IMG/VR virus record: IMGVR_UViG_3300017951_000002
Coordinates: 1-64,000 of that record
DNA: 64,000 nucleotides
Direction: 5' to 3' (one strand)
Source of the DNA: a virus
Numbering within the stretch: the first letter of the stretch is position 1; every line of letters begins with the position of its first letter. Of this stretch, positions 4,168 through 64,000 are shown one piece after another. Under the pieces are notes generated by a model. It had not been told where the DNA came from and did no database searches. It was given only the letters and a program-made list of their open reading frames with translations. The position numbers and the translations under genes are program-made.

Positions 4168-4184
4168 GGCATCCTAGCCCAGCT
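4168..4184 (+). promoter_or_regulatory. Late-box promoter for the lysozyme gene
   Basis: GGCATCCTAGCCCAGCT, a full match to the late consensus, 28 bp before the ATG at 4196. Confidence 0.65.
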
Positions 4185-5995: not shown

Positions 5996-7693
5996 TTACC
6001 GCTTTTTGATTTTCACGGCGATGAGGCCGTCGGTCTCATCCTCCCTGATTGCACTGTGGGCGTAATCCATCTTCAGGATTGACTTGTCCAGGAAGCCGCC
6101 AATGCCCTCGATCTTACTGCCAGACCAGCGTGCCTGACGGCCACGGGTTTTGGCATGCCAGAACTCCAGGCCACCAGTCCACTTGTCCTCGTCTCCGACC
6201 TTCTGGATCTCCTTGCGGACGATCCACACAGCATGGCTGACATGGGACAGTGCATCCGTGCCACGAATCTGGTCCAGGGTGGGAGCTTCCTTCTTGCCGT
6301 TAGGATCCATGCCTACTCGGTTCATCTGAGCCAGGACAATCAGGTCGATCTCCAGCTGCTTGGCGCAGTTCATCAGCTTGTAGGCACGCTCCTCCAGCAT
6401 TGAAGCATCCGAGGAGGGGGCACCCTTGTGGCGAGCCAAAACGTGGAAGTGGTCAATTACGGCACATCGGAGATCAGGGTTCTTAGCCTTCATGGAGCGC
6501 AGTGAGTTGATCACCGACTCAACGTCAGCACCCCAGGGGTCCTCAACTAACAGCTTGCCGCCGTTGTTCTGAATTGCCATAGCCGCCTGAGCCACTCGCT
6601 CCGAAACCTCGCTGCGTGTGTGGTCGGGGGATTCGATGGCACCGACTTCGGCCCAGGCCGTGTTTGGGTTGGCGACTTTGGTGGCTGCTGCCCAGATGCG
6701 AGCGTAGATAGCATGCTTGTCAAGCTCGGCTGAGATGAAGCCCACCTTGAGGCCGCCGTATGCCAGATTGACGGCAGCGTAAACGCCTAGAACGGTTTTA
6801 CCAACACCAGTGCGGGCAGCAAGGGTGAATAGCCGACCACCTGCGGCTTGACCTGGCGGGCGAACACCACCCTCCATGTCGATGTCCATGGCCTGCATGC
6901 CAGTACTGACAGGGGCGACCTGCTCGCGAGCGTCCATGATGATATCGAGAAACGACTTGTTGCCGTTCTTGGGTGCTAGCAGGTCCTCTACAGCATCAGT
7001 GGCATTGCCCTCGTTGCCAACGGAGCCGCGTAGCATGCCAAGGCAGCGCATCAATTCTTCTTGTTGCGCTTCGATCGCCTTCTCCAACTTGGTGTCAGAC
7101 TTGATGGTCTGCTCGGCTTGATGTTGAGCAGCAAGAAAGTTAGCGCGGGCGCGAGCCTGGCGGAGCAAGTCCAGGGCAACGCCGAATTCTGAGGCGGCAT
7201 CGCCGTAGCGCTCAAGGGTGGCAGGTTCCGACAAGTCTGAAACCGTCTTCTCGAACTCAAGCTTGGAACAGAACTGGGTGCTGTTCAGGGAGAATGCCTT
7301 GATCAACAGCTCTTTGCTGATCATAGTCGCGCCGTCAGCTTCGCCGTTGAAAACGCGATCAATCAGTGAGCCTACAGCGCGAAAGGCTGGGTTGGACCAT
7401 AGTTGACGGGGCAGCTCTTGTCCGTGCCCAACACCAACAGCAATACGCAGCTCGGACCAAAGCTCACGGGCCAGGCCAGGAGGGCTGGTCAGGACGCGGC
7501 TTAGCACAATGGCTTCCTGGTCTGTGGTGTCGTCACCATCGACCTGGGTAGTGGGCTGGATTTTTTCGATCAGGCGAGCGATGCCCAGGACTGATTCGGC
7601 TTCTTCTTGACCGACCCCGACAATGCGGCCATCTCTGGCTTCGAGCAGGCCGAGGTCGACGGCGTTTTGGATGTGCTTGGGGAATTGCATCAT
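5996..7693 (-). CDS. dnaB: Replicative DNA helicase, DnaB family
   Basis: 565 residues from ATG 7693, one base past the stop of the initiator gene. The RecA-like C-terminal domain has a Walker A motif (AARTGVGKT, about residue 292-300), a Walker B motif in LRCAVIDHFHVL, the H3-type LIVLAQMNR and the H4-type LDQIRGTDALSH. The N-terminal region (LIEKI..., AIVLSRVL) stands where the DnaB primase-interaction domain lies. It unwinds DNA at the fork with the DnaG-type primase at 17902. The frame is open above 7693, but that would overlap the upstream gene. Confidence 0.92.
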   Translation of the reverse strand: MMQFPKHIQNAVDLGLLEARDGRIVGVGQEEAESVLGIARLIEKIQPTTQVDGDDTTDQEAIVLSRVLTSPPGLARELWSELRIAVGVGHGQELPRQLWSNPAFRAVGSLIDRVFNGEADGATMISKELLIKAFSLNSTQFCSKLEFEKTVSDLSEPATLERYGDAASEFGVALDLLRQARARANFLAAQHQAEQTIKSDTKLEKAIEAQQEELMRCLGMLRGSVGNEGNATDAVEDLLAPKNGNKSFLDIIMDAREQVAPVSTGMQAMDIDMEGGVRPPGQAAGGRLFTLAARTGVGKTVLGVYAAVNLAYGGLKVGFISAELDKHAIYARIWAAATKVANPNTAWAEVGAIESPDHTRSEVSERVAQAAMAIQNNGGKLLVEDPWGADVESVINSLRSMKAKNPDLRCAVIDHFHVLARHKGAPSSDASMLEERAYKLMNCAKQLEIDLIVLAQMNRVGMDPNGKKEAPTLDQIRGTDALSHVSHAVWIVRKEIQKVGDEDKWTGGLEFWHAKTRGRQARWSGSKIEGIGGFLDKSILKMDYAHSAIREDETDGLIAVKIKKR

Positions 7694-7694
7694 A

Positions 7695-8540
7695 TCAGCG
7701 AGCAGTGGGGAGGTAGGAGACGCCGAGATCGTTCTCCTTGTAGGTCCAGTGTACCAGACAATCTTCGTCGGTGTAAATGTAGATCGTGTGATCGCCGTCA
7801 TTGGCTACCTGATGGGTCCAGGCAGTACTGCGGCTCATTTCAAGGCGAACGACCTTGTCCATCTTCAACCCCTTGGACTGGAACCAGTTGATCCAGCTTT
7901 GATCATTGCTGGCATCAAACAAGACAGCCTGGCCTTTCTTTGAGCCTGCCAGCTTGACTAGCTTCTCGACATTGGCGAACTTGTTTTGCTTAGGGGTGCC
8001 AGTCCCGAAGACATTAGTAAAGCTCATGTTCTTTTCCTTCCACCAGTCGTCAGCCTTGCAGCCGTTAAGGGTAGCCGCTAGGAACTTACAGAGGTCTGGC
8101 TCGTTGTTGTGCTTCGCGTGAAGCTTAAGGGTGTCAACCTGATTCAGGCTCAAGGAAGAGCGGAGACGAGCATAGCCGTCAGGCTTGAAAGAGTTCCAGG
8201 TGTCCTTGAGGTCCTCGCGAATCTGCTGCTCCTTTGTGAGCTTGGCCTCCTTTGGCTTGAAGTTCTCGCCAGGAATCGTGACAACCAGGCGGTTTTTCTC
8301 TTGGATCAGGTAGCCCTTGTCCTTCAGTGCCTGGCGTTGCTTGCGAAAGGCCACGGTAGAGATGCCGAACTGATCTGCGATGCTATCCGCTTCGACGATC
8401 ACCTGATCAGCTCCCCTCGGAAGGGCCAGCAAACGGCACCAGAGGCGGAACTCTGCGTGAGTCAGGTCTTGGTCGAAGATCACCTCGTTCATCACCTTGG
8501 TGAAGTCCGTAGTAGGCCTTAGGTCGGTCGTCAGATACAT
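7695..8540 (-). CDS. Replication initiator / helicase-loader-like protein
   Basis: 281 residues. Residues about 20-90 look like a winged helix-turn-helix: LTHAEFRLWCRLLALP, then DSIADQFGISTVAFRKQRQALKDKGYL, as in phage O-like and DnaD/RepA-type initiators. The C-terminal half is unfamiliar. It lies directly upstream of the helicase in one operon and next to the iteron-like array at 8569, matching an initiator that binds its own upstream repeats. The role is inferred from this arrangement. Confidence 0.75.
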   Translation of the reverse strand: MYLTTDLRPTTDFTKVMNEVIFDQDLTHAEFRLWCRLLALPRGADQVIVEADSIADQFGISTVAFRKQRQALKDKGYLIQEKNRLVVTIPGENFKPKEAKLTKEQQIREDLKDTWNSFKPDGYARLRSSLSLNQVDTLKLHAKHNNEPDLCKFLAATLNGCKADDWWKEKNMSFTNVFGTGTPKQNKFANVEKLVKLAGSKKGQAVLFDASNDQSWINWFQSKGLKMDKVVRLEMSRSTAWTHQVANDGDHTIYIYTDEDCLVHWTYKENDLGVSYLPTAR

Positions 8541-8568: not shown

Positions 8569-8662
8569 GTGATAGCTGCGGTTGCGCAACCTCAGGTATC
8601 GGTTAGCGATAGCTCAGGTATCGGTTTAGCGATACCTCAGGTATCACCACATCTATATATAA
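8569..8662. promoter_or_regulatory. Iteron-like control region A, candidate origin
   Basis: Contains GATANCTCAGGTATCG-type repeats starting near 8571, 8608 and 8631 (steps of 37 and 23). The longer first unit carries the palindrome GGTTGCGCAACC, and the array ends in CACATCTATATATA. The same plan recurs at 36651-36770. It lies between the divergent initiator and 8733 genes. Confidence 0.75.
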
Positions 8663-10042: not shown

Positions 10043-10882
10043 ATGTCTGATTCCATTCAATCCTGGCTCAATGCAGCAGGCCGCTTCCCGCTCCTGCCCC
10101 AGTCCGAGCTGATTCGCCTTGCCAAGAAGCGCGACTCCCTAAAGCCTGGCAGCGCAGCTTACGCCAAGGTGATCAACAAGATCTGCGAACACAACCTGCG
10201 CCTTGTACCGAACGTTGTCCGCAGCTATATCAGGAAACGCTCTGGATACACCATGGGCAGCGAGGTCATTTCAGACCTTCTGCAGCAGGGTTACATCGGC
10301 CTCCGCCGTGCCGCTGAGAAGTACGATCCATCCCTGGGCTACGCTTTTTCCACTTACGCCCACCGCTGGATCTCACAGGCCTTCATCCGTTGGCATAACA
10401 GCCATGATCGGACTATCTACATTCCCGAAAACTCGATGTGCGAAGTTCTGTACCGCTGGCGGAACGGTAAGCCCAGCAGGTCCAAGAACGGCAAGATTGG
10501 TAGCAGCATAATCAACTGCGCTATCCGTGCTACGGAGATCAGTTCCATTGACCAACGCGCAGGCGAAGACGGTGATACGGCTACCATTGCTGACTTGATT
10601 TCCGAAGAAAACCTGATTCTGCCCCGTACCAGCGCAGACAAGAGCTATGCCGAGGTGAAAATCAAGAATCTGATGGACGAGTGTGGCATCAAGCCTCGCG
10701 TTCAGAGCATTGTCATGACATATGCCAAGAAAGGCAACATGAAAATGACTGCCTATAAGCTGGGCCTCTGCTCTAACACCTGCCGCAAGCTCTACAATGA
10801 GGCCTTTGAGGTGATGAAATCCAAGGCCGACGAAAAGGAAGCAGCCGCCGCATCCGTTCGGGCTGTTAGAATGGGAAGGTAA
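10043..10882 (+). CDS. RNA polymerase sigma-70-family factor
   Basis: 279 residues. Region 2 is clear (about residues 50-118): KICEHNLRLVPNVVRSYIR, then DLLQQGYIGLRRAAEKYDPS, then AFSTYAHRWISQAFIRW, the core-binding and -10-recognition helices of sigma-70 proteins. The C-terminal third (about 205-265) may be a divergent region 4, with a weak helix-turn-helix around MTAYKLGLCSNTCRKLYNEA. It probably redirects host polymerase to phage promoters, for example the late boxes. GAGGA precedes the ATG; its last codons contain the SSB promoter. Confidence 0.88.
   Translation: MSDSIQSWLNAAGRFPLLPQSELIRLAKKRDSLKPGSAAYAKVINKICEHNLRLVPNVVRSYIRKRSGYTMGSEVISDLLQQGYIGLRRAAEKYDPSLGYAFSTYAHRWISQAFIRWHNSHDRTIYIPENSMCEVLYRWRNGKPSRSKNGKIGSSIINCAIRATEISSIDQRAGEDGDTATIADLISEENLILPRTSADKSYAEVKIKNLMDECGIKPRVQSIVMTYAKKGNMKMTAYKLGLCSNTCRKLYNEAFEVMKSKADEKEAAAASVRAVRMGR
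10867..10872 (+). promoter_or_regulatory. -10 box TAGAAT before ssb
   Basis: CTGTTAGAATGG, an extended -10 inside the last codons of the sigma gene, 39 bp before the ssb start. No clear -35 was seen. Confidence 0.55.
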
Positions 10883-14911: not shown

Positions 14912-14937
14912 CAGGGGCCTTCGTGGCCCTTTTTTGT
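14912..14937 (+). terminator. Terminator after thyX
   Basis: AGGGGCC-TTCGT-GGCCCT followed by TTTTT. Confidence 0.8.
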
Positions 14938-14943
14938 TGCTTC

Positions 14944-14959
14944 GGCATACTAGCCCGAC
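14944..14959 (+). promoter_or_regulatory. Late-box promoter for the terminase genes
   Basis: GGCATACTAGCCCGAC, 30 bp before the GTG at 14974. Confidence 0.6.
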
Positions 14960-14973
14960 ACAGGGAGATCCTA

Positions 14974-15600
14974 GTGAGCGACGGCGAATTTAGAGAATGG
15001 AAACCCGAGGTAAAGCGGGACCGTAACATCTGGGAGTTCCAGCGGGGCTACCATGTCTACGCTGCTGGCCAGCACGAAAGCAATGATCAGTTCAACGCTT
15101 TCCAGCTGTACCTGCACGGCAAGCGCAGCTTTGAGGCCGTGGCGGAAGAGCGTGGTGGCAAGGCGGAAACGGTCTCCAAGTGGGCAAAGAAGTATAATTG
15201 GGAGAAGCGTGCAGCATCCTGGGACACCAAGCAGATGGCACTGGCTGTACGGGAAGCCAATAAGATCGAGCGCAAGCGTCAGCGTGACTCCATCGAGGAG
15301 TACCGCAAGGCGAATGAAGAGCAGGCGAAAATGATGATGGAAACATCGGCTGACCTGATGGCCATCATCCAGAAGCGGATCACCAAGGCCGAGGCCGAAG
15401 GGGAAGACATCCCGATGGGTCTGATCTCAGGCCTGATGCGGGCAGCTGCCAACATTTCCGACTCTGGTCGTCAGTCCTGGGCCACAGCTCTCGGCGTTGG
15501 CCAACTGATGGCAGTCGTTGACCAGGAGCTAGAGGAAGTTCAGGTTGAGGTCATGGACGAAGAGGTCGACGAGGCCTACGACATTCCGCTTGACGACTGA
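14974..15600 (+). CDS. terS: Terminase small subunit
   Basis: 208 residues from GTG, with GGGAGA upstream. The N-terminal part has a helix-turn-helix-like stretch (FNAFQLYLHGKRSFEAVAEERGGKAETVSKWAKKYNW split over residues 36-70), typical of DNA-recognising small terminases. A long helical middle and an acidic tail (EEVDEAYDIPLDD) follow. Position directly before the large subunit with a stop/start overlap supports the call. Confidence 0.75.
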   Translation: MSDGEFREWKPEVKRDRNIWEFQRGYHVYAAGQHESNDQFNAFQLYLHGKRSFEAVAEERGGKAETVSKWAKKYNWEKRAASWDTKQMALAVREANKIERKRQRDSIEEYRKANEEQAKMMMETSADLMAIIQKRITKAEAEGEDIPMGLISGLMRAAANISDSGRQSWATALGVGQLMAVVDQELEEVQVEVMDEEVDEAYDIPLDD

Positions 15601-17117
15601 TGTCCACTAAGCTCGGCAAAGACTACCTGGAGTACGCCGCTTCAGGTCAGGACCTTCTCAAGGAGGTCAAGAAAAAGAAGTCCGCCAAGAATGCGGAACG
15701 TGTTGTGCTGTGGAAGTTCATCAAGAAGGTGATGCCCAGCTACAAATTCTACAAATTTCACGCAACTGTAATTGAACAACTCCAGCGAGTCATTGATGGA
15801 AAGTGCAACCGCCTTATCTTGCAGGTCCCGCCGCGACACGGAAAGTCGCTTCTTGCTTCGCAGCTTCTTCCTGCTGCTTACCTACTGGCTCACCCTGAGC
15901 GTTACGTCGGTATTTCTTCCTACTCAGCCGAACTTGCTGAGGGATTCTCTCGAAAGGCACGAGAGTTCTTCAAGGATGGTGGTGGGCTCCTGAATGAAAG
16001 CTCAAAAGCTGTCAATGCTTGGGGTACTGAGGGAGGCGGAGGCCTGTGGGCTGCTGGCGTGGGTGGCGCCGTCACTGGTCGCTCAGGCCATTTACTCATC
16101 ATCGACGACCCCGTCAAGAACCGAGAAGACGCGGAATCAGGCCGCATGATGGAGAAGCTCAATGACTGGTACACATCCACCCTCTACACCCGTCTTGAGC
16201 CACATGTCGGCGCTATCGTGGTCATTCAGACCCGATGGTCTGAAAACGACATGATCGGGCAACTGCTCGAAAACGAACACAACGTATCTGAAAAAGGCCG
16301 TGAAAACTGGACTGTTGTTGACCTCCCTGCCCTCTACGAAGACGAATCCGACAGACCAATCCTGCCAGCTCACTGTCCCACTGTTCCTGATTGGCGTTCT
16401 GAACTGGGCGAAGCACTCTGCCCCCAGCGTTACGACACGGATGCCCTGGAGCGAATCCGTGAAGCCGTTGGGTCTAGGGACTTTGCTTCGCTGTACCAGC
16501 AGCGGCCAGCTCCCGAGGGTGGCAACATGTTCAATCCTGACTGGTGGCAATTTTACAGTTGGGATACTACTCTCCCTGAATTCCAGAGAGTCATGCTTAG
16601 CGTTGACTGTACCTTCACCGATACCAAGAAAAGCGACTACGTGGTGGGTGCTGTGGTCGGGCAAGCTGGGAACCAGTTCTACGTTCTTGACCTCGTCAGG
16701 GAGAAGCTGGACGTGGTAGGTACCATGGCGATGATCGCTAGGCTCTATAAGCGGCATGCCTTGTCTGGCACTGTGATCGAACTTGCGGCATCAGGCTACG
16801 CGGTCTATCAGATGATGCAGAAGAAGGTACCAGGGCTGATCGGCTTCAAACCAGAGAAGTCCAAGACCTCGCGAGCTGCGGGCATCGTGCCGCTGGTGGA
16901 GGCTGGCAACGTCTTCCTGCCTGCTAGCGCTTCCTGGTTGGACGCATTTTTGAACGAATTCGCCCTGTTCCCTGCTTCTAAAAATGATGACATGGTGGAC
17001 GCCTTGACGATGGCAATCAACTACTGTAGCCAGCGCTCCGCTCCGACGATGACCTCCGTCACCTGGGGGCGAGGTGACAGGGCTTTGCCCGATGCCGCGC
17101 ATTATCGGGCTTGGTAG
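15600..17117 (+). CDS. terL: Terminase large subunit
   Basis: 505 residues. ATPase domain: Walker A in LQVPPRHGKSLLASQ (about residues 76-90), Walker B in HLLIIDDPVKN (about 164-174), then a coupling motif near IVVIQTRW. Nuclease domain: MLSVDCTFTDT with the first catalytic Asp (about 334), later YVLDLVREK and the final DDMVDALTMA (about 462-471). It pumps DNA into proheads through the portal at 26550 and cuts the concatemer. Confidence 0.95.
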   Translation: MSTKLGKDYLEYAASGQDLLKEVKKKKSAKNAERVVLWKFIKKVMPSYKFYKFHATVIEQLQRVIDGKCNRLILQVPPRHGKSLLASQLLPAAYLLAHPERYVGISSYSAELAEGFSRKAREFFKDGGGLLNESSKAVNAWGTEGGGGLWAAGVGGAVTGRSGHLLIIDDPVKNREDAESGRMMEKLNDWYTSTLYTRLEPHVGAIVVIQTRWSENDMIGQLLENEHNVSEKGRENWTVVDLPALYEDESDRPILPAHCPTVPDWRSELGEALCPQRYDTDALERIREAVGSRDFASLYQQRPAPEGGNMFNPDWWQFYSWDTTLPEFQRVMLSVDCTFTDTKKSDYVVGAVVGQAGNQFYVLDLVREKLDVVGTMAMIARLYKRHALSGTVIELAASGYAVYQMMQKKVPGLIGFKPEKSKTSRAAGIVPLVEAGNVFLPASASWLDAFLNEFALFPASKNDDMVDALTMAINYCSQRSAPTMTSVTWGRGDRALPDAAHYRAW

Positions 17118-17142: not shown

Positions 17143-17871
17143 GTGGCTCGCAAACCAACAAAATTTAAAATGACTCGCGAGCAGCAAGTACTTGCTACCG
17201 AGAACCTGAATCTAGCGCGACGTGAAGCCTGGCGCATTCAGCGCAGCACTGGCATTGACTACCACACCCTGGAGTCCGTGGCATTTGAGGGCCTGTGCAA
17301 GGCCGCTAATCGCTACGATCCTGATCGGCCCCATCCTGTCACGGGTAAGTCGATGAAGTTCAGCTCCCTGGCAGTTCCCACCATCCGTGGTGAACTCCTG
17401 CACTGGGTGCGTGATAAAACTTATGCTGTCAGACTAAGCCACAAGATGCGGGAGCGCTGGGTTAAGGGCCGCAAGCTACTCTACAGAGGATCCACCGACC
17501 TGGAAGTCGCAGAAGCCCTGGGCATCACCAAAGAGGAATGGCTGGAAGTCCGCAAGGTTTGCTCTGGCCCGCCGCTGGAGCTAAAGGAACAGGCTAAGCC
17601 CACTGATCCACTGGAGCCTAGTGAAATTGATTTTGCGCGAATCTATCTGGATGCCGCTGAAGATGCGGTGGACCGCGTCGACTCTGAGGCGATCACGACT
17701 GCTCTTGAGGTCTATCTAACTGGCCTTGGCATCGTGGTCCCCAGGGACGGCGTTAACGACCTCCTGGAGGCCGCTGGCTGTACCGCTACTGACTGGTCCG
17801 AAGAAGAGATTGACCTGATCGATGGCTGGGAGGAGCTGGGCGAAGGAAGGTTGCAGGGCTCGCTCTTTTGA
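17143..17871 (+). CDS. Second sigma-factor-like protein
   Basis: 242 residues from GTG. Region-2-like sequence spans about residues 20-85: ENLNLARREAWRIQ, LESVAFEGLCKAANRYDPD, MKFSSLAVPTIRGELLHWVRD. A region-3-like part follows: SHKMRERWVKGRKLL, DLEVAEALGITKEEW. The acidic C-terminal 110 residues do not look like region 4. It may be an alternative sigma or a co-factor for the late boxes. Distinct in sequence from the 10043 sigma. Confidence 0.75.
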   Translation: MARKPTKFKMTREQQVLATENLNLARREAWRIQRSTGIDYHTLESVAFEGLCKAANRYDPDRPHPVTGKSMKFSSLAVPTIRGELLHWVRDKTYAVRLSHKMRERWVKGRKLLYRGSTDLEVAEALGITKEEWLEVRKVCSGPPLELKEQAKPTDPLEPSEIDFARIYLDAAEDAVDRVDSEAITTALEVYLTGLGIVVPRDGVNDLLEAAGCTATDWSEEEIDLIDGWEELGEGRLQGSLF

Positions 17872-17901: not shown

Positions 17902-19461
17902 ATGGCAATCACCCCTGCTTCATTAGAAAAGCTCAAGTCTGGCTCGATCTCCAAGGTTATCGAGAGCCTTGGCAGTAAGCTGAAGCGGGTGGGTCGCGAA
18001 TATGTCACCCAGTGCATCTGGCACCAAGACACCAACCCGTCGCTGACGATCAACGACGACAAGGGTTTCTGTTTCTGCCATGTCTGCCGCAACGGTGGCG
18101 ATGTCATTGCTTACACCCGCCAGCGCAAGGGTCTGGACTTCGTCGATGCTGCGAATCTCTCAGCCTCTATCCTGGGGATCAGCCTGGAGACCGACGGGAT
18201 CAGTCCCGAGGAACAGGAGAAGCGCAAGAAGGCGCGACAGGCTGCGCTAGCTAAGCTGCAGAAGGATCAGGATCAGTGGAAGGCGAACCTGCACGACTCC
18301 CGAGCGGGTCGCATCCGCCAGATCCTGAAGGATCGTGGACTGAACACAGAGGCTGCAGAGGAGTTCGGCCTAGGCTTTGCTCCTGACGGCTTCTTTGCTG
18401 GCCGCATCACTATACCTATCCACAACCACAACAACGAACTAGTGGGATGGACGGGTCGTGCCACTGGTGATCAGACTGGCAAATACAAGAACAGTTCTGA
18501 TGGCGACCTGTTCCATAAGAAGAGCCTGGTGTTTAACGAGCATCGCGCCAAAGAAGCAGCCCGCTTAACGGGATCGCTAATCTTCGTCGAAGGCCATCTG
18601 GACGTGGTGTCGCTGTGGCAGCATGGCGTGGCCAATGCTGTTGCCATGCAGGGAACAGGAGCCCCTGAGCCGTTCGTCCTTGAACGCCTGGCCCGTTCTG
18701 TTGACAACTTTGTTCTGTGCTTTGATGGCGACGAGGGTGGTCGCAAGGCAGTGCAGCACTTCATCGCAGCCGCTGGCCCGATGGCGCAATCTGGCAAGCT
18801 GCAGATCAACATTGCTCAGATGCCTGCAGGCAAGGACCCTGACGAGGTGTGCCGCGAGTCTGGTGCTGACGCATTCCACGCCTTGGTGGCCGATGCTACG
18901 CCCTGGCTGGACTGGGTGATCGACTTCTGGGCGGCAGATCTCGACAAGAATGACACCAAGATGGTGACAGAGGTCGAGACAGAGCTTCGCAAGGTGATCG
19001 ACAAGCTTTCCTCGGCTGCGGTAAGGGCACACTATGTGGACAAGGCTGCACGAGCACTGTCGCAGAGCACCAAGGAAGCCCAATCGGTCATCAAGTCCTG
19101 GGGCACCTTCGAGGAGGTTAGGGTCGAGCGAGCATGGCAAGTACGCTCTGCTGAAAAGTGCCGCATTGCAACTGAGCGCCGCATGCTGCGAATTTTTGTC
19201 CATAGGCCGCACCTGCGCGATCAACTGCGCCCACTGCTGGCTGCTGTGTCCCATCCGCCTCTGAGATGGCTCTGTGAGCGCCTGGAGGAGTTAGAAGAGC
19301 ACTGCGAGACCGATCTTACCCCACATAGCGTCATGGCCGTTGTAGCGGCTTCTGAGCCCCACTTCCTGCAGCAGCTGCGGACGGTGGTGCAGCCGAATGT
19401 GCAGATCGATGAAACGGATGGAGTGTTACAGCACATTGAGCGAACGCTCACGACCTGTTAG
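17902..19461 (+). CDS. dnaG: DNA primase, DnaG type
   Basis: 519 residues. N-terminal CHC2 zinc finger: TQCIWHQDTNPSL, then FCFCHVCRNGGDVIAY (about residues 35-72). Toprim core: LIFVEGHLDVV (about 226-236) with the catalytic Glu, and FVLCFDGDEGGRKA (about 269-282) with the metal-binding Asp pair. The C-terminal about 150 residues would contact the helicase. It makes primers for the fork with the DnaB-type helicase at 5996. Confidence 0.93.
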   Translation: MAITPASLEKLKSGSISKVIESLGSKLKRVGREYVTQCIWHQDTNPSLTINDDKGFCFCHVCRNGGDVIAYTRQRKGLDFVDAANLSASILGISLETDGISPEEQEKRKKARQAALAKLQKDQDQWKANLHDSRAGRIRQILKDRGLNTEAAEEFGLGFAPDGFFAGRITIPIHNHNNELVGWTGRATGDQTGKYKNSSDGDLFHKKSLVFNEHRAKEAARLTGSLIFVEGHLDVVSLWQHGVANAVAMQGTGAPEPFVLERLARSVDNFVLCFDGDEGGRKAVQHFIAAAGPMAQSGKLQINIAQMPAGKDPDEVCRESGADAFHALVADATPWLDWVIDFWAADLDKNDTKMVTEVETELRKVIDKLSSAAVRAHYVDKAARALSQSTKEAQSVIKSWGTFEEVRVERAWQVRSAEKCRIATERRMLRIFVHRPHLRDQLRPLLAAVSHPPLRWLCERLEELEEHCETDLTPHSVMAVVAASEPHFLQQLRTVVQPNVQIDETDGVLQHIERTLTTC

Positions 19462-36650: not shown

Positions 36651-36770
36651 TGACCGATACCTGCGGTTGCGCAACCTCAGCTATCGCTGACCGATACCTC
36701 AGCTATCGCAAACCGATACTTCAGCTATCGCAAACCGATAGTTGCGCTATCGCACATCTATATATATATA
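36651..36770. promoter_or_regulatory. Iteron-like control region B, candidate origin
   Basis: CCGATAC-type repeats start at 36654, 36691, 36713 and 36735 (steps of 37, 22 and 22). The first unit carries GGTTGCGCAACC and the array ends in CACATCTATATATA, as in region A at 8569. Each repeat is an inverted pair of the form CGATANNTNNNNTATCG. Confidence 0.75.
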
Positions 36771-42232: not shown

Positions 42233-42248
42233 GGCATACTAGACTAGC
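42233..42248 (+). promoter_or_regulatory. Late-box promoter for the 42263 gene
   Basis: GGCATACTAGACTAGC, 30 bp before the ATG. Confidence 0.6.
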
Positions 42249-42774: not shown

Positions 42775-43227
42775 ATGGCAAAAACTCAGTTCAACTTTAA
42801 CGCAACAATCGAAATCCAGATGCCCAAGGTGGCTGGTAAGGCGGATACAAAGAAAATGCAAGCCGCCGTCAGGAAGGCACTTTCAAAAGGCGCTCAAAAG
42901 GGCGCTACCTACATCCAGAAAAGTCTCGGAACTGCTCTTGACGAGTCTATTACCAGGGTCGGGGCTATCGATACAGGAAAACTCAAGAACTCTCTGGAGA
43001 TCAGGCCAAAGTTTGCCCAGACCAAGGTCGGCTTCAGCATCATCTATAAAACACCTTATGCGGCTTTCGTCCACTATGGTGGTGTTATGCGCCCTTACGG
43101 TAATCCCAACGCTGCAACGGTAACCATCCCTGGCAGGCCTTGGATTGAGATGGCCTTAAAGGATTTCGATATGAGAACGCCGTTTGACAGAGGCATAGGG
43201 GAGGCCTGGTCGGCTCAGTTTGGATAG
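42775..43227 (+). CDS. HK97-gp10-like neck/tail protein
   Basis: 150 residues. The family pattern is present: VRKALSKGAQKGATYIQKSL, GAIDTGKLKNSLEIRP, YKTPYAAFVHYGGVMRPYG and IPGRPWIEMAL. Members lie at the head-tail junction of siphoviruses. The stop is followed by the late box of the chaperone gene. Confidence 0.82.
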   Translation: MAKTQFNFNATIEIQMPKVAGKADTKKMQAAVRKALSKGAQKGATYIQKSLGTALDESITRVGAIDTGKLKNSLEIRPKFAQTKVGFSIIYKTPYAAFVHYGGVMRPYGNPNAATVTIPGRPWIEMALKDFDMRTPFDRGIGEAWSAQFG

Positions 43228-43244
43228 GTATCCTAGCCCAGCTT
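43227..43244 (+). promoter_or_regulatory. Late-box promoter for the tail chaperone genes
   Basis: GGTATCCTAGCCCAGCTT, the best consensus match, 28 bp before the ATG. Confidence 0.7.
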
Positions 43245-44917: not shown

Positions 44918-44933
44918 GGTACCCTAAAATAGC
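44918..44933 (+). promoter_or_regulatory. Late-box promoter for the tail terminator gene
   Basis: GGTACCCTAAAATAGC, 28 bp before the GTG at 44946. Confidence 0.5.
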
Positions 44934-46158: not shown

Positions 46159-46176
46159 GGAAGCCTACAGGCAGCT
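46159..46176 (+). promoter_or_regulatory. Late-box promoter for the tape measure
   Basis: GGAAGCCTACAGGCAGCT, 29 bp before the GTG at 46188, directly after the terminator. Confidence 0.6.
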
Positions 46177-48987: not shown

Positions 48988-49335
48988 ATGTTCCTGTTCG
49001 GAGACACTAGCGACACTGCCAGGCTCTACCTGGAGTACACCATGGGCGAAGACCCTCGCAAGTTTCCAGACGTGCATCCTGATGAGATGTCTTTGTCGGA
49101 ACTGGAAAACCTTGTTATATGGCTTTTGATAGCCGTCAAGCGTTCAACTGGGGATGATGTTGATGAGCCAGTCCATGAGACCTTACTAGCCTGGTACGAC
49201 GAAGCCTTTGAGGCCTATGCCAGGGCAAGCGATAAGGTCCTTAAGGCAATCAAGGCTAATAAGCATGTTCCTCCTACGGGTCGAAGAGATCTTCCCAAGT
49301 ACGCGGCCATTGCAGAACGGGCTTCGGAATCCTAG
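48988..49335 (+). CDS. Tail-region hypothetical protein
   Basis: 115 residues from ATG 48988. Helical and acidic: MSLSELENLVIWLLIAVKRS, then AYARASDKVLKAIKANKH. It follows the tape measure. Role unknown. Confidence 0.65.
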   Translation: MFLFGDTSDTARLYLEYTMGEDPRKFPDVHPDEMSLSELENLVIWLLIAVKRSTGDDVDEPVHETLLAWYDEAFEAYARASDKVLKAIKANKHVPPTGRRDLPKYAAIAERASES

Positions 49336-49763: not shown

Positions 49764-52079
49764 ATGGGGTACCTCGTACAAAAAACAAGAGCCGCAAGCC
49801 TGACAGTCGGCGGGCAAGACTACACGAGCAGTTTCGTTTCCCTGCAGGTAAGCGATGTCAGCGCATTCAAGAATGGTTTAATCACAACCAGCGGCACGCT
49901 GTTGCTTGGGCAAAGGCCAGGAGGGGTCGATATAGAGGACTACGACCGCAATCTGTTCAAGCGTGGCACCTTGATCACCCTTGACGTTCAAGAGCCTGGT
50001 GGAGCGGCTTACAGGCACCCCAGGGGCCATCTTTATGTGCTTGGCCTAGCTTACAACGTGGAGGCTGAGCAACTTGACATCCAGGTTGGCTGCCGCTTAA
50101 GCCTGGCCTACCTAACGGACAACACCTCCGAGGTACTTCCTCTGGTGCCAATCCCCCTGGATCCGACACAGCGGACGATCGAAAACTGCTCGGCCAGCTT
50201 CGCCTCGGCTGGCATGATCCTGTATCAGGACAATCAAGGCGTTCTCCAAAGCCGAAGGTTTTTCGGCAACGACAACAGCTCTGGCGTTGACGGTGGTGAC
50301 TGGGTTTCCGTGCTAGGAGAAACAGCTTTATCGGTCTCGCCTTTGGCGGGAGCTGGTCCAATTCCAGATACAATCAAGCTGTCCTACCAGGTTCCTGCTG
50401 GCGCAATTACTGGCGATCAAAGTGCGCCGACGGAAGACACTACGGTAACAGAATCAAACTACTTTATTACCTATCCTGCTGTTACGTTTGCTCGTGTAAA
50501 ACAAGACGAAAATGACAGCAACATCAATGAAAGAGTAAACGAACCTCCTCGTAGTCCAGTTAGAGTTAGTGGCTGTGGAACTGTTATCGAGGCCCCGCAG
50601 TCAAACCAAGGGCAGCAGGACGGCGAACAGCAAAGCCAGCTATGCAACGAAGCTTTCGTTACCGAAAGAACGACTGTCTACCTTCCTGCCAACAAGGTCG
50701 TAACATCCACAAGCTACTACCTTGGCATAGGAGGACAAATTTCTAGGGCCGAAGAGGAAGAGTCTGGCCCACTCATTGAGGCTAACTCGCAGTACTTTGC
50801 AGACAGATATGCTTTCTGTAAGCAAATTTACGGCTACAGCTGTCGCCCCAGCGGCGGCTGTTCATACTACGGAATGGAAACGAGCGTTTTAAGGCGTACT
50901 GTCGTTGAATACTTTTACAACAGGGATGGGTCCTTGGCAAGCACTGTTCAGGACAGTTATGAAACAATGCTTTCCGCTGCCAATCCAGAAGACTGGCGCT
51001 CTGGCGTTTCTAACGGTCGACTTCAAGATTTTGACAAGCAGTTTGATACGAAATATAATCAGCTTTACTTAGCAACAAAAGTTATCACGAACTACAGGTT
51101 AGAAAACAACCTAAACATTCAAGAAACAATTACCTTCAACAGTGTAGCCTCTAGGGGAATCGGGGTTTCGGGTTTAGGTAGCTCGTATTCAGTCGCCCGC
51201 TACTTGGACGCAACGGAAGGAATCAAGACAGTCGTTATTAGAAAATCTGCTACAAACGTCGTCAACGACCCTCGTCCTGATTCGGTCAAATCGCCTTCGA
51301 CCTCTACCTCAGAACGCTCGACCTTAATTAACCTGAATACAAACTCCTACATCACTCCACCTTCAGTGGCGGCCAACTACCAGCTGGAGGAGTCAATCCC
51401 TGTTCCGCTGCTTTCTTCCAGCAGTTCTACTGTCCAAGGATGGGTTGCTGACTACAGCAACTACCTTGTTCGATTTACCAAGGGGAGTCTTTACGGTCTG
51501 CAGATTGGCGAGTCAATGCGCTCTGAGATCGTAACTGGCTGGTATCCAGGTAGGCCGTTCCGTTATGCTGACAATAAAAACAACAGAATTGCCGCAATGC
51601 GGATGGATGCCTGCGCCTGGGGCGTGACCCAAGAGGAAGCGATTGTTGTGATGAATGGGGTTTGGAACGGATTCAGCATCGGCACGCTTGTGCTTGGGGA
51701 CAATCTGACAGGCAACTCCAGTCCAGACATGAGTGCAACGCCAGGGGCTCCTACGCCTCCGCCTGGAGTGTCTGCTCCGCCATCTATTGCGAATGACGTA
51801 GTCGGCCAAAGCTTTTCCTTTAACGTTGACATCAATCTTCAGTTGGATTCGTATGTCTTTATTTACGGAGACTCTCCAGTACGCACCCCCAACCCTACGG
51901 ACCTAACCGCTCGGGTGGATCTTACTATTATTCCGCATGTCGGGGGTATAGTGGTAGAGCCAGGAGGGATCGTCGAGACGACAGGCACTGGCAGCATTCC
52001 TTTGGAAACGAATGATGGCTTAATCGTTACCACCACTGCTGTTGTCGTGACTGACGATCTTTTCGCGGCAGCACCGTAG
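49764..52079 (+). CDS. Large tail tip or hub protein
   Basis: 771 residues, beta-rich. Start: ASLTVGGQDYTSSFVSLQVS, LFKRGTLITLDVQEPGG. A Cys-containing insert (YGYSCRPSGGCSYYGMETS) lies near residue 355. A Pro/Gly-rich linker (GAPTPPPGVSAPPS) near 660 precedes the final domain. It is the largest protein after the tape measure, where the tail hub normally lies. Sequence resembles virion proteins I associate with cyanosiphoviruses. Confidence 0.7.
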   Translation: MGYLVQKTRAASLTVGGQDYTSSFVSLQVSDVSAFKNGLITTSGTLLLGQRPGGVDIEDYDRNLFKRGTLITLDVQEPGGAAYRHPRGHLYVLGLAYNVEAEQLDIQVGCRLSLAYLTDNTSEVLPLVPIPLDPTQRTIENCSASFASAGMILYQDNQGVLQSRRFFGNDNSSGVDGGDWVSVLGETALSVSPLAGAGPIPDTIKLSYQVPAGAITGDQSAPTEDTTVTESNYFITYPAVTFARVKQDENDSNINERVNEPPRSPVRVSGCGTVIEAPQSNQGQQDGEQQSQLCNEAFVTERTTVYLPANKVVTSTSYYLGIGGQISRAEEEESGPLIEANSQYFADRYAFCKQIYGYSCRPSGGCSYYGMETSVLRRTVVEYFYNRDGSLASTVQDSYETMLSAANPEDWRSGVSNGRLQDFDKQFDTKYNQLYLATKVITNYRLENNLNIQETITFNSVASRGIGVSGLGSSYSVARYLDATEGIKTVVIRKSATNVVNDPRPDSVKSPSTSTSERSTLINLNTNSYITPPSVAANYQLEESIPVPLLSSSSSTVQGWVADYSNYLVRFTKGSLYGLQIGESMRSEIVTGWYPGRPFRYADNKNNRIAAMRMDACAWGVTQEEAIVVMNGVWNGFSIGTLVLGDNLTGNSSPDMSATPGAPTPPPGVSAPPSIANDVVGQSFSFNVDINLQLDSYVFIYGDSPVRTPNPTDLTARVDLTIIPHVGGIVVEPGGIVETTGTGSIPLETNDGLIVTTTAVVVTDDLFAAAP

Positions 52080-52100
52080 GTACTCTATAGTCGATCAGCT
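52079..52100 (+). promoter_or_regulatory. Late-box promoter for the 52109 gene
   Basis: GGTACTCTATAGTCGATCAG plus CT, 30 bp before the ATG; a divergent copy. Confidence 0.45.
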
Positions 52101-54949: not shown

Positions 54950-54966
54950 GGAAGCCTAGCCCAGTT
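54950..54966 (+). promoter_or_regulatory. Late-box promoter for the 54978 fibre
   Basis: GGAAGCCTAGCCCAGTT, 28 bp before the GTG. Confidence 0.65.
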
Positions 54967-54977
54967 GTACTTGTACT

Positions 54978-56807
54978 GTGGCTGTTTTTCCCGATAGAAT
55001 CGTACTCAAGAACTCTACGGACAGCCAGGCGGCAATCGAGTCTGCTATCGGGTCAGGTGGAACGGACGAGATCAGCCAGGGAGAGGTAGTCATTGGCCTT
55101 ACTACGGGCGCTGCAGCGCTTTACACAAAGGATGCTGTTGGCACTATCGTCACCCTTTCGGGCAAGGTTGCCAGCGTCAATAGCCAGATTGATGATGTCA
55201 TTATTGACGTTGAGAATTTAGGAAACTTTCAGTACGGGGTTGACCCAGCCAAGCAGTCGTTTGTTTTGTCTGGCCCCTCAAACAACACTCCCAGCGCGTC
55301 GGGGATGTGGGATATCGGGTCTAATTTTAACAACTATTTTGCATGGTACGATACAGACCCTATACAGTCTTGGCTCAGCACAGTTCCTGTTGGTACTGCG
55401 ATTGAATTCGTCACGCGATGGGGATACAAGCATACGGCTGTAACCAGCACCGTTGCGAGCACATACGCCTCAGGAGCGGACTATATTAGTTTTTCTGGTT
55501 ACCCTTGGCCGCAGGAGCTGTTGGACGCCCAGGCTAACAACGAGTTTATCGTCGTTCAGGAACAGAATGCGTTCCTTACCCCTCAAGACGGCGAGGCACT
55601 CCTCTACGAGGCTTCTACGGGTCTCTGGAGGCCTGCTTCGACCAGCGGCAGTGTCAGTAGTGTTAATGGGCTTACAGGCGCTGTCAGCATTGGCGTAGAA
55701 GATCTGGACGACTATTTGCCGCAACCAGGCACTCACCCCGTTGCATATCACTCTGACAAGCAATCTGATGGCAACTGGAGTGGATCAAATTCCAGCACGA
55801 CTGGTGGATACGCTCTTGATCAGAGCGGCGGCAATTACACAGGCATATATATCAACAAAAACACTCCTACTTCAGGAACCTCCCTGGCCAGTCAAGGCTT
55901 TACCGCAGGAACAACTCTGGACCTGTGGGTTAGTGCGGACGGTGTGAACTTCACGCAACACACAGCGACAAACTCATACGCCCAAAGTGTTAACAATGCA
56001 CTGTTTACTGGGCTTTCGCCAAACCTAAACGCCTACACCAGCGCATCTGCTCTGTACTTCAGCCTTTCGGCCCCTGGTGCCGCTGCACCCCTTGCTGACG
56101 GCGACATCCTGCAATACGAATCAGCCACCTCTGCCTGGAGACCCGTACCGTCAACAGGGCTTGGCGGGTCTGTTGCTAGTATTGACGACATCGGCGACGT
56201 GGATACGACGACAGTCGCCCCCACAGACGGTCAGGCGTTGGTTTGGGATAATACCGCTCAACAATGGGAGCCTGGCTCCGTGGCTGCCAGCGCTGGTCGA
56301 GGTGATGGTGGCGACTTTGATACAGGAACAGTGGACTCAGCATATGTCTTTGGGGTTTATGGTGGCGGTGATTTCAGTGCTGGATCTGCGTCTACGACAG
56401 CGGTTGCTCCGTTCGCGCATGCTTACATCGACAGCAATAACATCAGCTCCACGACTGCCCACACAGGCATGTCATCCGCAGCGCATGTTTACATTGCCAG
56501 CACAGACAGTTACATCGACTTTACCTTTGACACCGCCCAGCCTGGCACGGATTATTCGGTACTGCACTCAGGAGAGGCTGGATGGAATGTTCTTGAAGTC
56601 GAAAACAAAACGACCTCTGGCTTCAGGGTAAGCTTTTACGATGAAGCCACTGGTAATGTGCTATCTACTGGCGCAGTAGGAATTGGTGCGCCCGTAATTA
56701 CCGTTTACGATTCTGACCCCACGATCACGGTTAGCAGCAGTAGCGGAGTAGACCTTCCCGCTGAACTTTTTGGCGACGATGAGGGGCCTGACGGGGGAAG
56801 CTTCTAG
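54978..56807 (+). CDS. Tail fibre-like protein 1
   Basis: 609 residues from GTG. N-terminal attachment-like part (NSTDSQAAIESAIGSGGTDE), linkers of the DVDTTTVAPTDGQALVWDN type (about 410), and a roughly 150-residue module (VEDLDDYLP..., INKNTPTSGTSLASQGFTAG, ASALYFSLS) shared with the 56838 fibre. The end is acidic and Gly-rich. Probably a trimeric receptor-binding or accessory fibre. Confidence 0.75.
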   Translation: MAVFPDRIVLKNSTDSQAAIESAIGSGGTDEISQGEVVIGLTTGAAALYTKDAVGTIVTLSGKVASVNSQIDDVIIDVENLGNFQYGVDPAKQSFVLSGPSNNTPSASGMWDIGSNFNNYFAWYDTDPIQSWLSTVPVGTAIEFVTRWGYKHTAVTSTVASTYASGADYISFSGYPWPQELLDAQANNEFIVVQEQNAFLTPQDGEALLYEASTGLWRPASTSGSVSSVNGLTGAVSIGVEDLDDYLPQPGTHPVAYHSDKQSDGNWSGSNSSTTGGYALDQSGGNYTGIYINKNTPTSGTSLASQGFTAGTTLDLWVSADGVNFTQHTATNSYAQSVNNALFTGLSPNLNAYTSASALYFSLSAPGAAAPLADGDILQYESATSAWRPVPSTGLGGSVASIDDIGDVDTTTVAPTDGQALVWDNTAQQWEPGSVAASAGRGDGGDFDTGTVDSAYVFGVYGGGDFSAGSASTTAVAPFAHAYIDSNNISSTTAHTGMSSAAHVYIASTDSYIDFTFDTAQPGTDYSVLHSGEAGWNVLEVENKTTSGFRVSFYDEATGNVLSTGAVGIGAPVITVYDSDPTITVSSSSGVDLPAELFGDDEGPDGGSF

Positions 56808-56821
56808 GAATACTAACGCAG
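56807..56821 (+). promoter_or_regulatory. Late-box promoter for the 56838 fibre
   Basis: GGAATACTAACGCAG, 31 bp before the ATG. Confidence 0.55.
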
Positions 56822-59140: not shown

Positions 59141-59158
59141 GGCATCCTAGCCTAGCTT
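59141..59158 (+). promoter_or_regulatory. Late-box promoter for the 59169 gene
   Basis: GGCATCCTAGCCTAGCTT, 28 bp before the ATG. Confidence 0.65.
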
Positions 59159-59546: not shown

Positions 59547-59561
59547 GGAATACTAGCGGCG
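59547..59561 (+). promoter_or_regulatory. Late-box promoter for the scaffold gene
   Basis: GGAATACTAGCGGCG, 50 bp before the ATG. The extra length holds a hairpin CAGGG-GTGAT-CCCTG, so this box breaks the usual spacing. Confidence 0.5.
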
Positions 59562-60409: not shown

Positions 60410-60559
60410 TTGGTATAGGTATTATATGGATAGCAGCCCCGTAGGAAAGTTCCGAGATGGAGACGACTGAAAGGGTGCAATTTGTCGAAGCGGTCGTGAC
60501 GGCTGCCTAGGCCTAACACCCACACTCTGTTCTTTCTTACTTTAAGAGGTATTTTTATC
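60410..60559 (+). promoter_or_regulatory. Long leader of the major capsid gene
   Basis: 150 bases without an ORF. It starts GGTATAGGTATTATATGG, a possible strong promoter, and includes GCAGCC...GGCTGC pairing potential and TAAGAGG before the ATG. The standard late box is missing here. Confidence 0.5.
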
Positions 60560-61737: not shown

Positions 61738-64000
61738 ATGTCTGCACATTTTAACGCCCTGACTGGGCAGTTCCTGCTCAGCGAGCAGCTAATTCCTGCT
61801 GGCAGCGGACAACACTACGACCTGCAGAATGGCGGTATCGTCTTTAGTGATCTGCTGGTGCCGAAGCTTGGCGGCACGCTGTTTGATGACGCAACCCTTG
61901 ATATTAACTTCGCTGAGAACAAGAGCCTTACTGACAGCGTCAGTGGCAACAACCTGATCACCTTCACCCGCGCCAGCAGTGGGACGTATGTCGACAGTGA
62001 TGGGCTGATTCAGAGTGCTGCTGTAGATACGCCCCGCTTCGACCACGATCCATCTACGGGTGAAAGCCTCGGGTTGTTGATTGAAGAGGCTAGGACGAAC
62101 TTATTGACGGAAAGTGAAGATGTGAGTAGTGGCTATGGCCTTAAGAGTGTGACTGTTCCCTTTGATTCTTCTGCAGTTAATCCAACTGGATCGCTTGGGT
62201 CCTACAAAATTCTTGCTGATTCGGGGTTTTCTACAGGCGGAGTTAGAATAACTAAAAGTACAACATCTTCAAATAATATCGTTGTAAGTGCGTTTGTTAA
62301 AAAAAGCACTTATAGATACGTTTTAGTTGGGTTTGGGGGTATTGACAACCATTTCACTGCATTATTCGATATCGAACCTGGACTCACCTCTAATCGTCTT
62401 CTTGGTCAGGACATAAAAGGATCATCAAGTACAATCATCAGTGCAGGATATCAGGATTTTCCGAATGACTGGATCCGCATTTGGGCAGTCGGAACAACTA
62501 TTGGCGGTGGTGGACCGACTGTCGGCATGAGTGAAGATGCTAGTACTTTTGTTATCAGAAACTGGACTCCTGCTGGTACCGAAGAGATTTACGTTTGGGG
62601 CTTGCAGTATGAAAACAACAAAACCTTCCCCACCTCCTACATCCCAACCTCAGGCGCTACCGTAACCCGCGCTGCTGACGTTGCAACGATCGATAATAGT
62701 GGTAGCTCTGTCTTTAACGTTGACCAGTTTACGACTATCAATAAGCCGTTCGGACGCTCTAGTGGTTCTACCACGCTGACACTCCTCCCTGCCGACCCTG
62801 CTAGCATTCAGCGGGTTTCCGTCTTCAACCAGCACCTGTCACAGGGGTCAATCAATAGCGCTTCAGATGCAGAGGATGACGGCTTCTGGCGTTGGCGGAT
62901 CTTTGCTAGCACCTTTCGTCTTCTCGACTTCACTACTGATGGACAGGTAACAGTTGACTGGGGTGATGGAACGGTAGAGACACTAACTAATGCTGTTCAC
63001 ACGTTCGCTAATGGACTTGGATATTACGAGGTTGGCTTCAGGTTGGATAGTGGAACTTATTTCCAACCCTATATCAACAACAACACCACTCACAAAGACA
63101 AGGTAGTTGCCATTGGTCCTGCACCAGTGAGCATGACGTTACATGCGTTTAGAGCATTTAATGGTTGCGCGTCACTTGAAGCATTTGATGCAACGGTTGA
63201 TACTACTGGTGGGGTTAACTTTACCCAATCTTGGCGTAACTGCAGCAGCCTCGCTAGCTTCCCGTTCATTGATACGTCTGGTGGGACTAACTTTAACTCC
63301 GCTTGGAGTCTCTGCAGCAGCCTTACTAACTTCCCGTTACTTGATACGTCTAGTGGGACTAGCTTTAACGCCACTTGGCGTAACTGCAGCAACCTGACCA
63401 GCTTTCCGTTAATCGATACGTCTGGTGGGAGTGACTTTCAGTTTGCTTGGGACAACTGCAGCAGCCTAACCAGCTTCCCGTTAATTGATACTTCTAGTGG
63501 GATTGAGTTTGACTCCGCTTGGGAAGACTGCAGCAACCTTACTAGCTTCCCGTTACTTGATACTTCTAGTGGGAGTGCCTTTAATGCCGCTTGGAGAGGG
63601 TGCAGCAACCTTGCTAGCTTCCCGTTAATTGATACGTCTGGTGGGACTAACTTTGCCAACGCTTGGAACGGCTGCAGCAGCCTGACCAGCTTCCCGTTAA
63701 TTGATACGTCTGGTGGAACTAACTTTAGCTCCACTTGGTACGGCTGCGGCAACCTGACCAGCTTCCCGTTAATTGACACTTCTAGTGGGACTACCTTTAA
63801 CGCCACTTGGAGGCTGTGCAGCAGCCTGACCAGCTTTCCGTTAATTGATACGTCTGGCGGGAGTAACTTTCAGTCTGCTTGGTACCAATGCACTAGCCTT
63901 ACAAGTTTTCCAGCTATTGATACGTCTAGTGGAACTATTTTCAGAAATGCTTGGCGCGACTGCAGCAGCCTAACAAGTTTCCCCGCAAACTTCTTTGACT
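61738..64000 (+). CDS. Leucine-rich-repeat tail fibre, cut by the window end
   Basis: At least 754 residues, open at the window edge. Residues about 60-130 contain TFTRASSGTYVDSDGLI, DTPRFDHDPSTGESLGLLIE and EARTNLL, a fibre module common in cyanophages. The middle is a carbohydrate-binding-like beta domain. From about residue 480 run 11 or more 24-residue repeats of the form LTSFPLIDTSGGTNF..W..C, a BspA-like leucine-rich repeat (DUF285 type), coded by 72-bp units from about 63180. Probably a host-binding fibre. No ribosome site is obvious; ATG follows the previous stop by 5 bases. Confidence 0.8.
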   Translation, partial: MSAHFNALTGQFLLSEQLIPAGSGQHYDLQNGGIVFSDLLVPKLGGTLFDDATLDINFAENKSLTDSVSGNNLITFTRASSGTYVDSDGLIQSAAVDTPRFDHDPSTGESLGLLIEEARTNLLTESEDVSSGYGLKSVTVPFDSSAVNPTGSLGSYKILADSGFSTGGVRITKSTTSSNNIVVSAFVKKSTYRYVLVGFGGIDNHFTALFDIEPGLTSNRLLGQDIKGSSSTIISAGYQDFPNDWIRIWAVGTTIGGGGPTVGMSEDASTFVIRNWTPAGTEEIYVWGLQYENNKTFPTSYIPTSGATVTRAADVATIDNSGSSVFNVDQFTTINKPFGRSSGSTTLTLLPADPASIQRVSVFNQHLSQGSINSASDAEDDGFWRWRIFASTFRLLDFTTDGQVTVDWGDGTVETLTNAVHTFANGLGYYEVGFRLDSGTYFQPYINNNTTHKDKVVAIGPAPVSMTLHAFRAFNGCASLEAFDATVDTTGGVNFTQSWRNCSSLASFPFIDTSGGTNFNSAWSLCSSLTNFPLLDTSSGTSFNATWRNCSNLTSFPLIDTSGGSDFQFAWDNCSSLTSFPLIDTSSGIEFDSAWEDCSNLTSFPLLDTSSGSAFNAAWRGCSNLASFPLIDTSGGTNFANAWNGCSSLTSFPLIDTSGGTNFSSTWYGCGNLTSFPLIDTSSGTTFNATWRLCSSLTSFPLIDTSGGSNFQSAWYQCTSLTSFPAIDTSSGTIFRNAWRDCSSLTSFPANFFD
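63180..64000 (+). repeat. 72-bp repeats in the fibre gene
   Basis: TTCCCGTT-containing units recur every 72 bp, with landmarks near 63258, 63330, 63402, 63474 and on to 63978. They encode the 24-residue leucine-rich repeats. Confidence 0.85.

Follow-up and report, generated by a model that had tools for sequence, protein, structure and literature searches.

The virus represented by the 64,000-nucleotide stretch analysed here (hereafter the window: positions 1 to 64,000 of IMG/VR record IMGVR_UViG_3300017951_000002, which has 65,840 bases) encodes a group 3-type phage sigma factor of 242 amino acids, a candidate late sigma factor, in an open reading frame with a GTG start (17143–17871, plus strand). 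The protein combines sigma regions 2 and 3 with an acidic C-terminus ending in a conserved Q-x-x-L-F motif. On balance, we think it probable, from the sequences and by analogy, that it works as a late sigma factor in the manner of T4 gp55, tethered to the sliding clamp of the host. The terminal Q-x-x-L-F tail and a -10-only late box as the candidate sigma target appear to be new here. A search of the literature, mostly not at the level of full texts, found no clamp-binding phage sigma factor outside T4 and no description of this late box.

Two sigma factors in a siphovirus-type genome

The record of the window contains siphovirus-type structural genes for a portal, a tail protein, a tape measure and a major head protein, in agreement with the genome type given in the preliminary description, and the virus, a marine cyanophage, is a relative of the Synechococcus phages S-CBS2 and S-CRES1-3. 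The sigma gene lies between terL (terminase large subunit, 15600–17117), upstream, and a DNA primase gene (17902–19461), downstream, both assigned by Pfam and PHROG profile matches; terS (terminase small subunit, 14974–15600; PHROG 6299) precedes terL, and all of these genes are on the plus strand. The same order around the sigma gene is found in S-CRES3, S-CBS2 and S-CRES1, that is, in all three relatives viewed. A tandem array with a 72-base unit in about 10 copies, in which a period of 216 is also seen, occupies 63238–63983 at the end of the window and probably belongs to the gene of a surface or structural protein with repeats.

Pfam Sigma70_r2 matches residues 18–92 of the 17143 product with E 5.8e-5 and 23.2 bits, just below the curated cut-off of 24, and PHROG 36098, 'RNA polymerase sigma factor', matches it with E 2.9e-93. 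Sequence profiles lead from this protein to SigB, SigF and FliA, i.e., to group 3, and its nearest phage relatives among the matches listed are 'SigF' genes. Matches to bleomycin hydrolase in the PDB sequence search were taken as chance. The second sigma factor, of 279 amino acids (10043–10882, plus strand), is a different protein, classified as RpoD-like (group 2) by Pfam, PHROG and its phage relatives: it matches Sigma70_r2 with E 3.7e-13, and its nearest phage relatives are RpoD-like sigma factors. Two differing sigma-like proteins with region 2, as claimed in the preliminary description, are therefore encoded by this genome.

The two-sigma arrangement is not new, because it is annotated in S-CBS2 and S-CRES1-3 and has been described in Cyanophage PSS2, where the available part of the paper reports a group 3 (ORF 003) and a group 2 (ORF 113) sigma factor (PMC2784084). 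As in the window, the group 3 gene of PSS2 adjoins terL; its product is 48% identical to the 17143 product over residues 2–151, and a similar late box is present in the genome. The PSS2 protein differs in having 213 amino acids and another C-terminus without Q-x-x-L-F. As far as the paper is available, it gives sigma-70 promoter predictions only, and no sequence is named there for the regulon of the group 3 sigma factor (PMC2784084). S-CBS2 gp077 and the 'SigF' proteins of S-CRES1, S-CRES2 and S-CRES3 are direct orthologues of the 17143 product, 70% identical over the full length, and are annotated as sigma factors only. S-CBS2, S-CRES1 and S-CRES3 share not only the gene order but also the QGSLF end with the window, the S-CBS2 tail lying in the next frame.

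Domain architecture of the late sigma candidate

The AlphaFold run took in 28 proteins from the window and from viral contigs. In the model of the 17143 product, helices spanning residues 12–141 correspond to regions 2 and 3. Region 2 is assigned to residues 12–94 (17176–17424, plus strand, as are all parts of the gene) from the Pfam match, the AlphaFold helices and the similarity to 8b3z_C, and region 3 to residues 98–141 (17434–17565) from hhalign against 79 cellular sigma factors and the similarity to 4ki2_B. The preliminary description had made its reading depend on a sigma2 fold in this protein, and the model contains one: the sigma2 domain matches 8b3z_C with Z 10.0 and an rmsd of 2.3 Å over 74 aligned residues. 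The sigma2-3 unit (model residues 20–140) matches 4ki2_B with Z 8.9 and an rmsd of 4.1 Å over 113 residues. When the 17143 family was compared by hhalign with the 79 cellular group 3-type sigma factors, the score was 99.5% over residues 17–139, and the alignment stops at residue 139.

Region 4 has no Pfam match in the 17143 product, and a profile of the C-terminal part gave a non-significant 4% in hhalign against the same 79 cellular sigma factors. Only for the sigma factors of the tail-less clade B does the alignment extend a little way into the first part of cellular region 4.1. Where region 4 would be, residues 164–210 (17632–17772) form a three-helix module in the AlphaFold model. Its helices reach a pLDDT of about 90 when residues 158–242 are modelled alone, and a PDB fold search with the module alone gave a best Z of 2.6, with no sigma factor among the matches and none confident, so that no known fold can be assigned with confidence. 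Alignments of the whole model to the end of sigma-70 chains have an rmsd of about 25 Å and were hence disregarded as evidence of region 4. The module is followed by a divergent acidic linker (residues 211–237; 17773–17853), delimited from the alignment of relatives and from composition, and by the terminal QGSLF (residues 238–242; 17854–17868), a candidate beta-clamp-binding motif recognised by its conservation in relatives. Residues 211–242 contain nine D/E and one K/R, and the C-terminal tail is of low confidence in the AlphaFold model. The architecture of the preliminary description, with regions 2 and 3, an acidic C-terminus and no region 4, is thus retained. Regions 2 and 3 align with those of cellular group 3 sigma factors such as SigB, SigF and FliA. 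In contrast to those proteins, the 17143 product has the three-helix module, the acidic linker and the clamp-like motif, and region 4 is not detectable. Five other phage sigma factors were read: region 4 is of the ordinary kind in the four that come from human faecal records, and the S-CBWM1 sigma factor lacks Q-x-x-L-F and shows no evident region 4.

A -10-only late box

A common motif, tnGGnAtcCTA or near it, was found by de novo EM motif search upstream of the late genes of the window, S-CBS2, S-CRES1 and S-CRES3, each searched separately (4/4), and the upstream regions of PSS2 late genes gave the similar motif nGGAAnccTaa. The early gene sets yielded no such motif in the de novo EM search. 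By a late/early split of our own among the plus-strand genes annotated in S-CBS2, S-CRES1 and S-CRES3, 69 of 112 late genes have the pattern GG.A..[ACT]TA in the 100 nt before them, as do 15 of 110 early ones (Fisher p 6e-14). Minus-strand genes and variable hypothetical stretches between modules belong to neither class, and S-CRES2 was left out. Because terS, terL, sigma and, in all three genomes, the portal region were counted as early, the split works against the late-box reading. The separate late box of the preliminary description is therefore real and statistically strong. In the window, 14 of 21 late ORFs, picked by hand, have the box.

The start of the box lies 28–31 nt ahead of the start codon in 41 of 75 cases. 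Such near-fixed spacing would suit an RNA element, either a translation enhancer or a processing site, rather than a promoter, yet we regard this as very improbable. Many boxes are found directly 3' of an intrinsic terminator (14 of 128 boxes; for positions drawn at random, 169 of 21,000), a place at which transcription has to begin anew, the A and T of the box are spaced as in a -10 element, and some boxes stand as far as -45 to -79 from the start codon. No base preference is seen at the expected position of a -35 element in the regions upstream of the boxes. The promoter reading of the box is thus that of a -10 element only.

The box is biased towards the plus strand in all six genomes with the 17143 sigma family. 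The plus/minus counts of GGnAnnCTA are 28/6 in the window, 38/5 in S-CBS2, 30/5 in S-CRES1, 32/5 in S-CRES3, 20/3 in PSS2 and 38/9 in G005, a 93-kb contig. The bias is seen in none of the four genomes without this family, the counts being 1/0 in S-CBS1, 0/0 in S-CBS3, 1/1 in S-LBS1 and 4/6 in the first 49 kb of S-CBS4; these four phages are not among the sigma 17143 matches listed (best 40 of 41). The plus-strand total of PSS2 shows no excess over the Markov expectation (20 against 20.2), and the case for the box in this genome is made by strand bias and by position, 15 of 20 boxes lying just before an ORF. Because the sigma carriers are related phages, the correlation between box and sigma factor is confounded by descent. 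This leaves room for an improbable alternative, in which the box is read by a host sigma factor or by the RpoD-like 10043 sigma factor and the 17143 product does something else, for example regulating the switch; the link between sigma factor and box comes from sequence comparison, and the box carriers are related. However, S-CBS1, S-CBS3 and S-LBS1 have a relative of the RpoD-like 10043 sigma factor, have no SigF-like match among the best 40 of 41, and lack the box, whereas PSS2, which shares the SigF-like sigma factor at 48% identity, has it. Furthermore, a box without -35 fits a sigma factor without region 4. The redirection of host polymerase by a second, phage-controlled sigma factor, put forward in the preliminary description, is accordingly well supported at the sequence level, in that the box has no -35 element and is found where the sigma factor is found.

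Box map and wiring of the sigma unit

The sigma gene itself probably belongs to a unit started by its own box. A terminator-like stem-loop (14913–14931, plus strand) ends the upstream unit, and the late box GGCATACTA (14944–14952, plus strand) follows it 30 nt ahead of the terS start at 14974. This box is likely the promoter of a terS-terL-sigma unit, which would place the sigma gene under autoregulation. S-CRES1 and S-CRES3 carry the same box at the same place ahead of terS; in S-CBS2 no box was found in front of this gene.

The other boxes mapped in the window are likewise on the plus strand. GGTATTATA (60418–60426) lies upstream of the major capsid gene (60560), and GGAAGCCTA (46159–46167) lies at -29 of the tape measure gene (46188). 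The same sequence recurs at 54950–54958, at -28 of ORF 54978, and the sequence of the terS box, GGCATACTA, recurs at 42233–42241, at -30 of ORF 42263. Boxes at -28 are also found before ORF 43255 (GGTATCCTA, 43227–43235), ORF 44946 (GGTACCCTA, 44918–44926), ORF 49354 (GGAATCCTA, 49326–49334) and ORF 59169 (GGCATCCTA, 59141–59149). ORF 52109 has its box at -30 (GGTACTCTA, 52079–52087), ORF 56838 at -31 (GGAATACTA, 56807–56815) and ORF 59597 at -50 (GGAATACTA, 59547–59555). Near the other end of the window, GGTATCCTA (2857–2865) stands at -27 of a fibre-like gene (2884) and GGCATCCTA (4168–4176) at -25 of the endolysin gene (4193). The portal gene (26550 in the window) has a box only 15 nt ahead of its start, and the corresponding box is at -79 in S-CRES1 and S-CRES3; the ribonucleotide reductase genes of S-CBS2 and S-CRES3 have a box at -31. 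The boxes before the portal and ribonucleotide reductase genes indicate that the box regulon exceeds purely structural genes.

A conserved C-terminal Q-x-x-L-F motif

In the first search, 43 sigma sequences (42 relatives and the window) were collected, of which five were dropped, namely S-CBS2 twice because of a frame break, L036 and L038 because of cuts at contig ends, and PSS2 because it differs. The remaining 38 sequences, window included, comprise 31 distinct complete relatives, and in all 31 the terminal pentapeptide has an invariant Q, L and F. Over the same 31 relatives, column entropy averages 0.44 bits in the first hundred columns and 1.65 bits between column 161 and the last five. 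When the set is widened to 40 tail-bearing loci, which encode 39 distinct proteins, every one of the 39 ends in Q..[LV]F. The codons at the motif vary over the tail-bearing loci, with both Gln codons, all six Leu codons and both Phe codons in use, and selection therefore acts on the protein. The linker is much shortened in L039/L098 and L099 (57% identity), and QGSLF or QGRLF is kept. Among 512 ORFs of at least 40 amino acids in the window, only the 17143 sigma factor ends in Q-x-x-L-F; none of the 764 ORFs of PSS2 ends in a clamp-like motif.

The bacterial beta-clamp-binding pentapeptide, as given in the available part of its source, is QL(S/D)LF and stands at the C-terminus (PMC9690074). The preliminary description had suggested that the acidic C-terminus contacts another factor, and this suggestion can now be given a candidate partner, since the conserved terminal Q-x-x-L-F may dock on the host beta sliding clamp. 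It is possible, though rather unlikely, that the 17143 product is the late-box sigma factor and that Q-x-x-L-F serves instead to contact core polymerase, a phage anti-sigma factor or a co-activator, or to set protein stability. Most tails have Gly and not Leu at position 2 of the motif, a departure from the bacterial consensus that would agree with such a role, as would the retention of the box, and presumably of sigma activity, in tail-less relatives. However, the terminal Q, L and F remain invariant after a variable acidic linker, close to the bacterial clamp motif and with Ser at position 3 in 30 of 40 loci, and the motif survives the shrinkage of the linker in L039 and L099.

The reading frame of the S-CBS2 sigma gene (L041, 20001–20736) is broken after about codon 203, with the codons for the QGSLF tail in the next frame. 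The annotated S-CBS2 sigma factor of 206 amino acids has no tail because of this frame break in the deposited genome, which may be either a sequencing error or a real mutation. The RusA nuclease of S-CBS2 (L041, 15272–15643) also has a clamp-like end, QEPLF; no counterpart of this ORF end was found in S-CRES1 or S-CRES3.

The tail is present in 39 of 70 distinct complete phage relatives and missing from the other 31 (27 of clade B and 4 PSS2-like). The loci L100–L130 and L131–L134 are a large related set of phage sigma factors of about 202–231 amino acids without a clamp-like tail. The proteins with a tail are not a single clade, L039/L099 standing apart from the other 37, which implies either two gains or several losses of the tail. 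PSS2 and G005, the two genomes with a tail-less sigma factor that were examined, still have the late box, and a tether is therefore not needed to read it. The tail-less phages, PSS2 and G005 included, have no match to DnaN or DNA polymerase A above the cut-off, and the tail therefore does not track the use of the host clamp. The idea that tail-less relatives carry their own polymerase, which would have accounted for the loss of the tail, was dropped: when 17 records were searched with PF00476 and PF02768, the outcome was a single weak match (12 bits, in G006), located inside a 593-aa ORF that by reading resembles the DnaB-like helicase.

Replication genes and the probable origin of the clamp

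No match to DnaN (PF02768), T4 gp45 (PF02916) or DNA polymerase A, B or III-alpha was found in any of eight records, comprising the isolate genomes deposited as complete (S-CBS2, S-CRES1 and S-CRES3), the record of the window and four other contigs. Synechococcus elongatus, the positive control, gave matches for DnaN and Pol III alpha. The replication proteins encoded by the window phage include a DnaB-type helicase, a helicase loader, a primase and an SSB; the DnaB-like replicative helicase is encoded at 5996–7801 on the minus strand. Because neither a clamp nor a known replicative polymerase is encoded, the clamp would be that of the host. We infer from the gene content that the window phage borrows the replicase and clamp of its host, and that its replication would run without a polymerase of its own. 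Two short direct-repeat arrays with related units, at 8589–8645 (ACCTCAGGTATCGGTTTAGCGAT) and 36674–36754 (ACCTCAGCTATCGCAAACCGAT), are distant from each other in the genome and are possible origin iterons or protein-binding sites.

Comparison with T4 late transcription

T4 gp55 consists of a sigma2 domain, a divergent linker and a C-terminal clamp epitope, and T4 late promoters have no -35 element, according to the available part of PMC2988020. The T4 gp55/gp33/gp45 system is described there and in the accessible portion of PMC7892883 as using a region 2 homologue without region 4 at -10-only promoters. Like gp55, the 17143 product has sigma2, no detectable region 4, a divergent linker and a candidate clamp motif at its C-terminus, and the putative late promoters of the window phage, like those of T4, have a -10 element only. 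Unlike gp55, the 17143 product keeps region 3, the sequence of its presumed box differs, and its motif is of the bacterial beta-clamp type and not of the LDFL type of T4, as far as the available text of PMC9690074 describes them. Also unlike in T4, no phage clamp was found (8/8 records), nor a gp33-like second clamp binder in the window, where no other ORF of at least 40 amino acids ends in the motif; a gp33 without the motif would escape this search. Because gp55 is absent from the PHROG and PDB sequence matches of the 17143 product, no homology was detected beyond sigma region 2, and neither a phage clamp nor a gp33-like clamp binder was found, the protein would not be a member of the gp55 family by these tests.

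Proposed mechanism and implications

In the mechanism that we propose, regions 2 and 3, derived from a group 3 (SigF/SigB-like) sigma factor, would bind the host core RNA polymerase, and the resulting holoenzyme would read the -10-only promoter tnGGnAtcCTA about 30 nt before most late genes. With neither region 4 nor recognition of a -35 element, the holoenzyme by itself would be expected to be weak. Sliding clamps that stay behind on newly replicated phage DNA may then recruit the late polymerase by docking of the terminal motif, so that late transcription would wait for, and scale with, DNA replication. This would be the logic of T4 gp55 and gp45, built from a different sigma factor and the clamp of the host. 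Since a late box also opens the terS-terL-sigma unit, positive feedback would strengthen the switch further.

Whether the whole scheme applies seems to us evenly balanced: replication-coupled late transcription may exist outside the T4 family, in a cyanobacterial siphovirus lineage whose truncated group 3 sigma factor would have acquired a beta-clamp-binding motif of host type, with the host clamp serving as mobile enhancer for a -10-only late promoter and with a self-reinforcing sigma operon. If so, the coupling of late genes to replication would be a recurrent solution, with this lineage as a second case beside T4, and clamp-driven transcription would become testable with bacterial DnaN. The orphan group 3 sigma factors of PSS2-type cyanophages would gain a concrete target sequence, and late promoters could be predicted in this group of marine phages.
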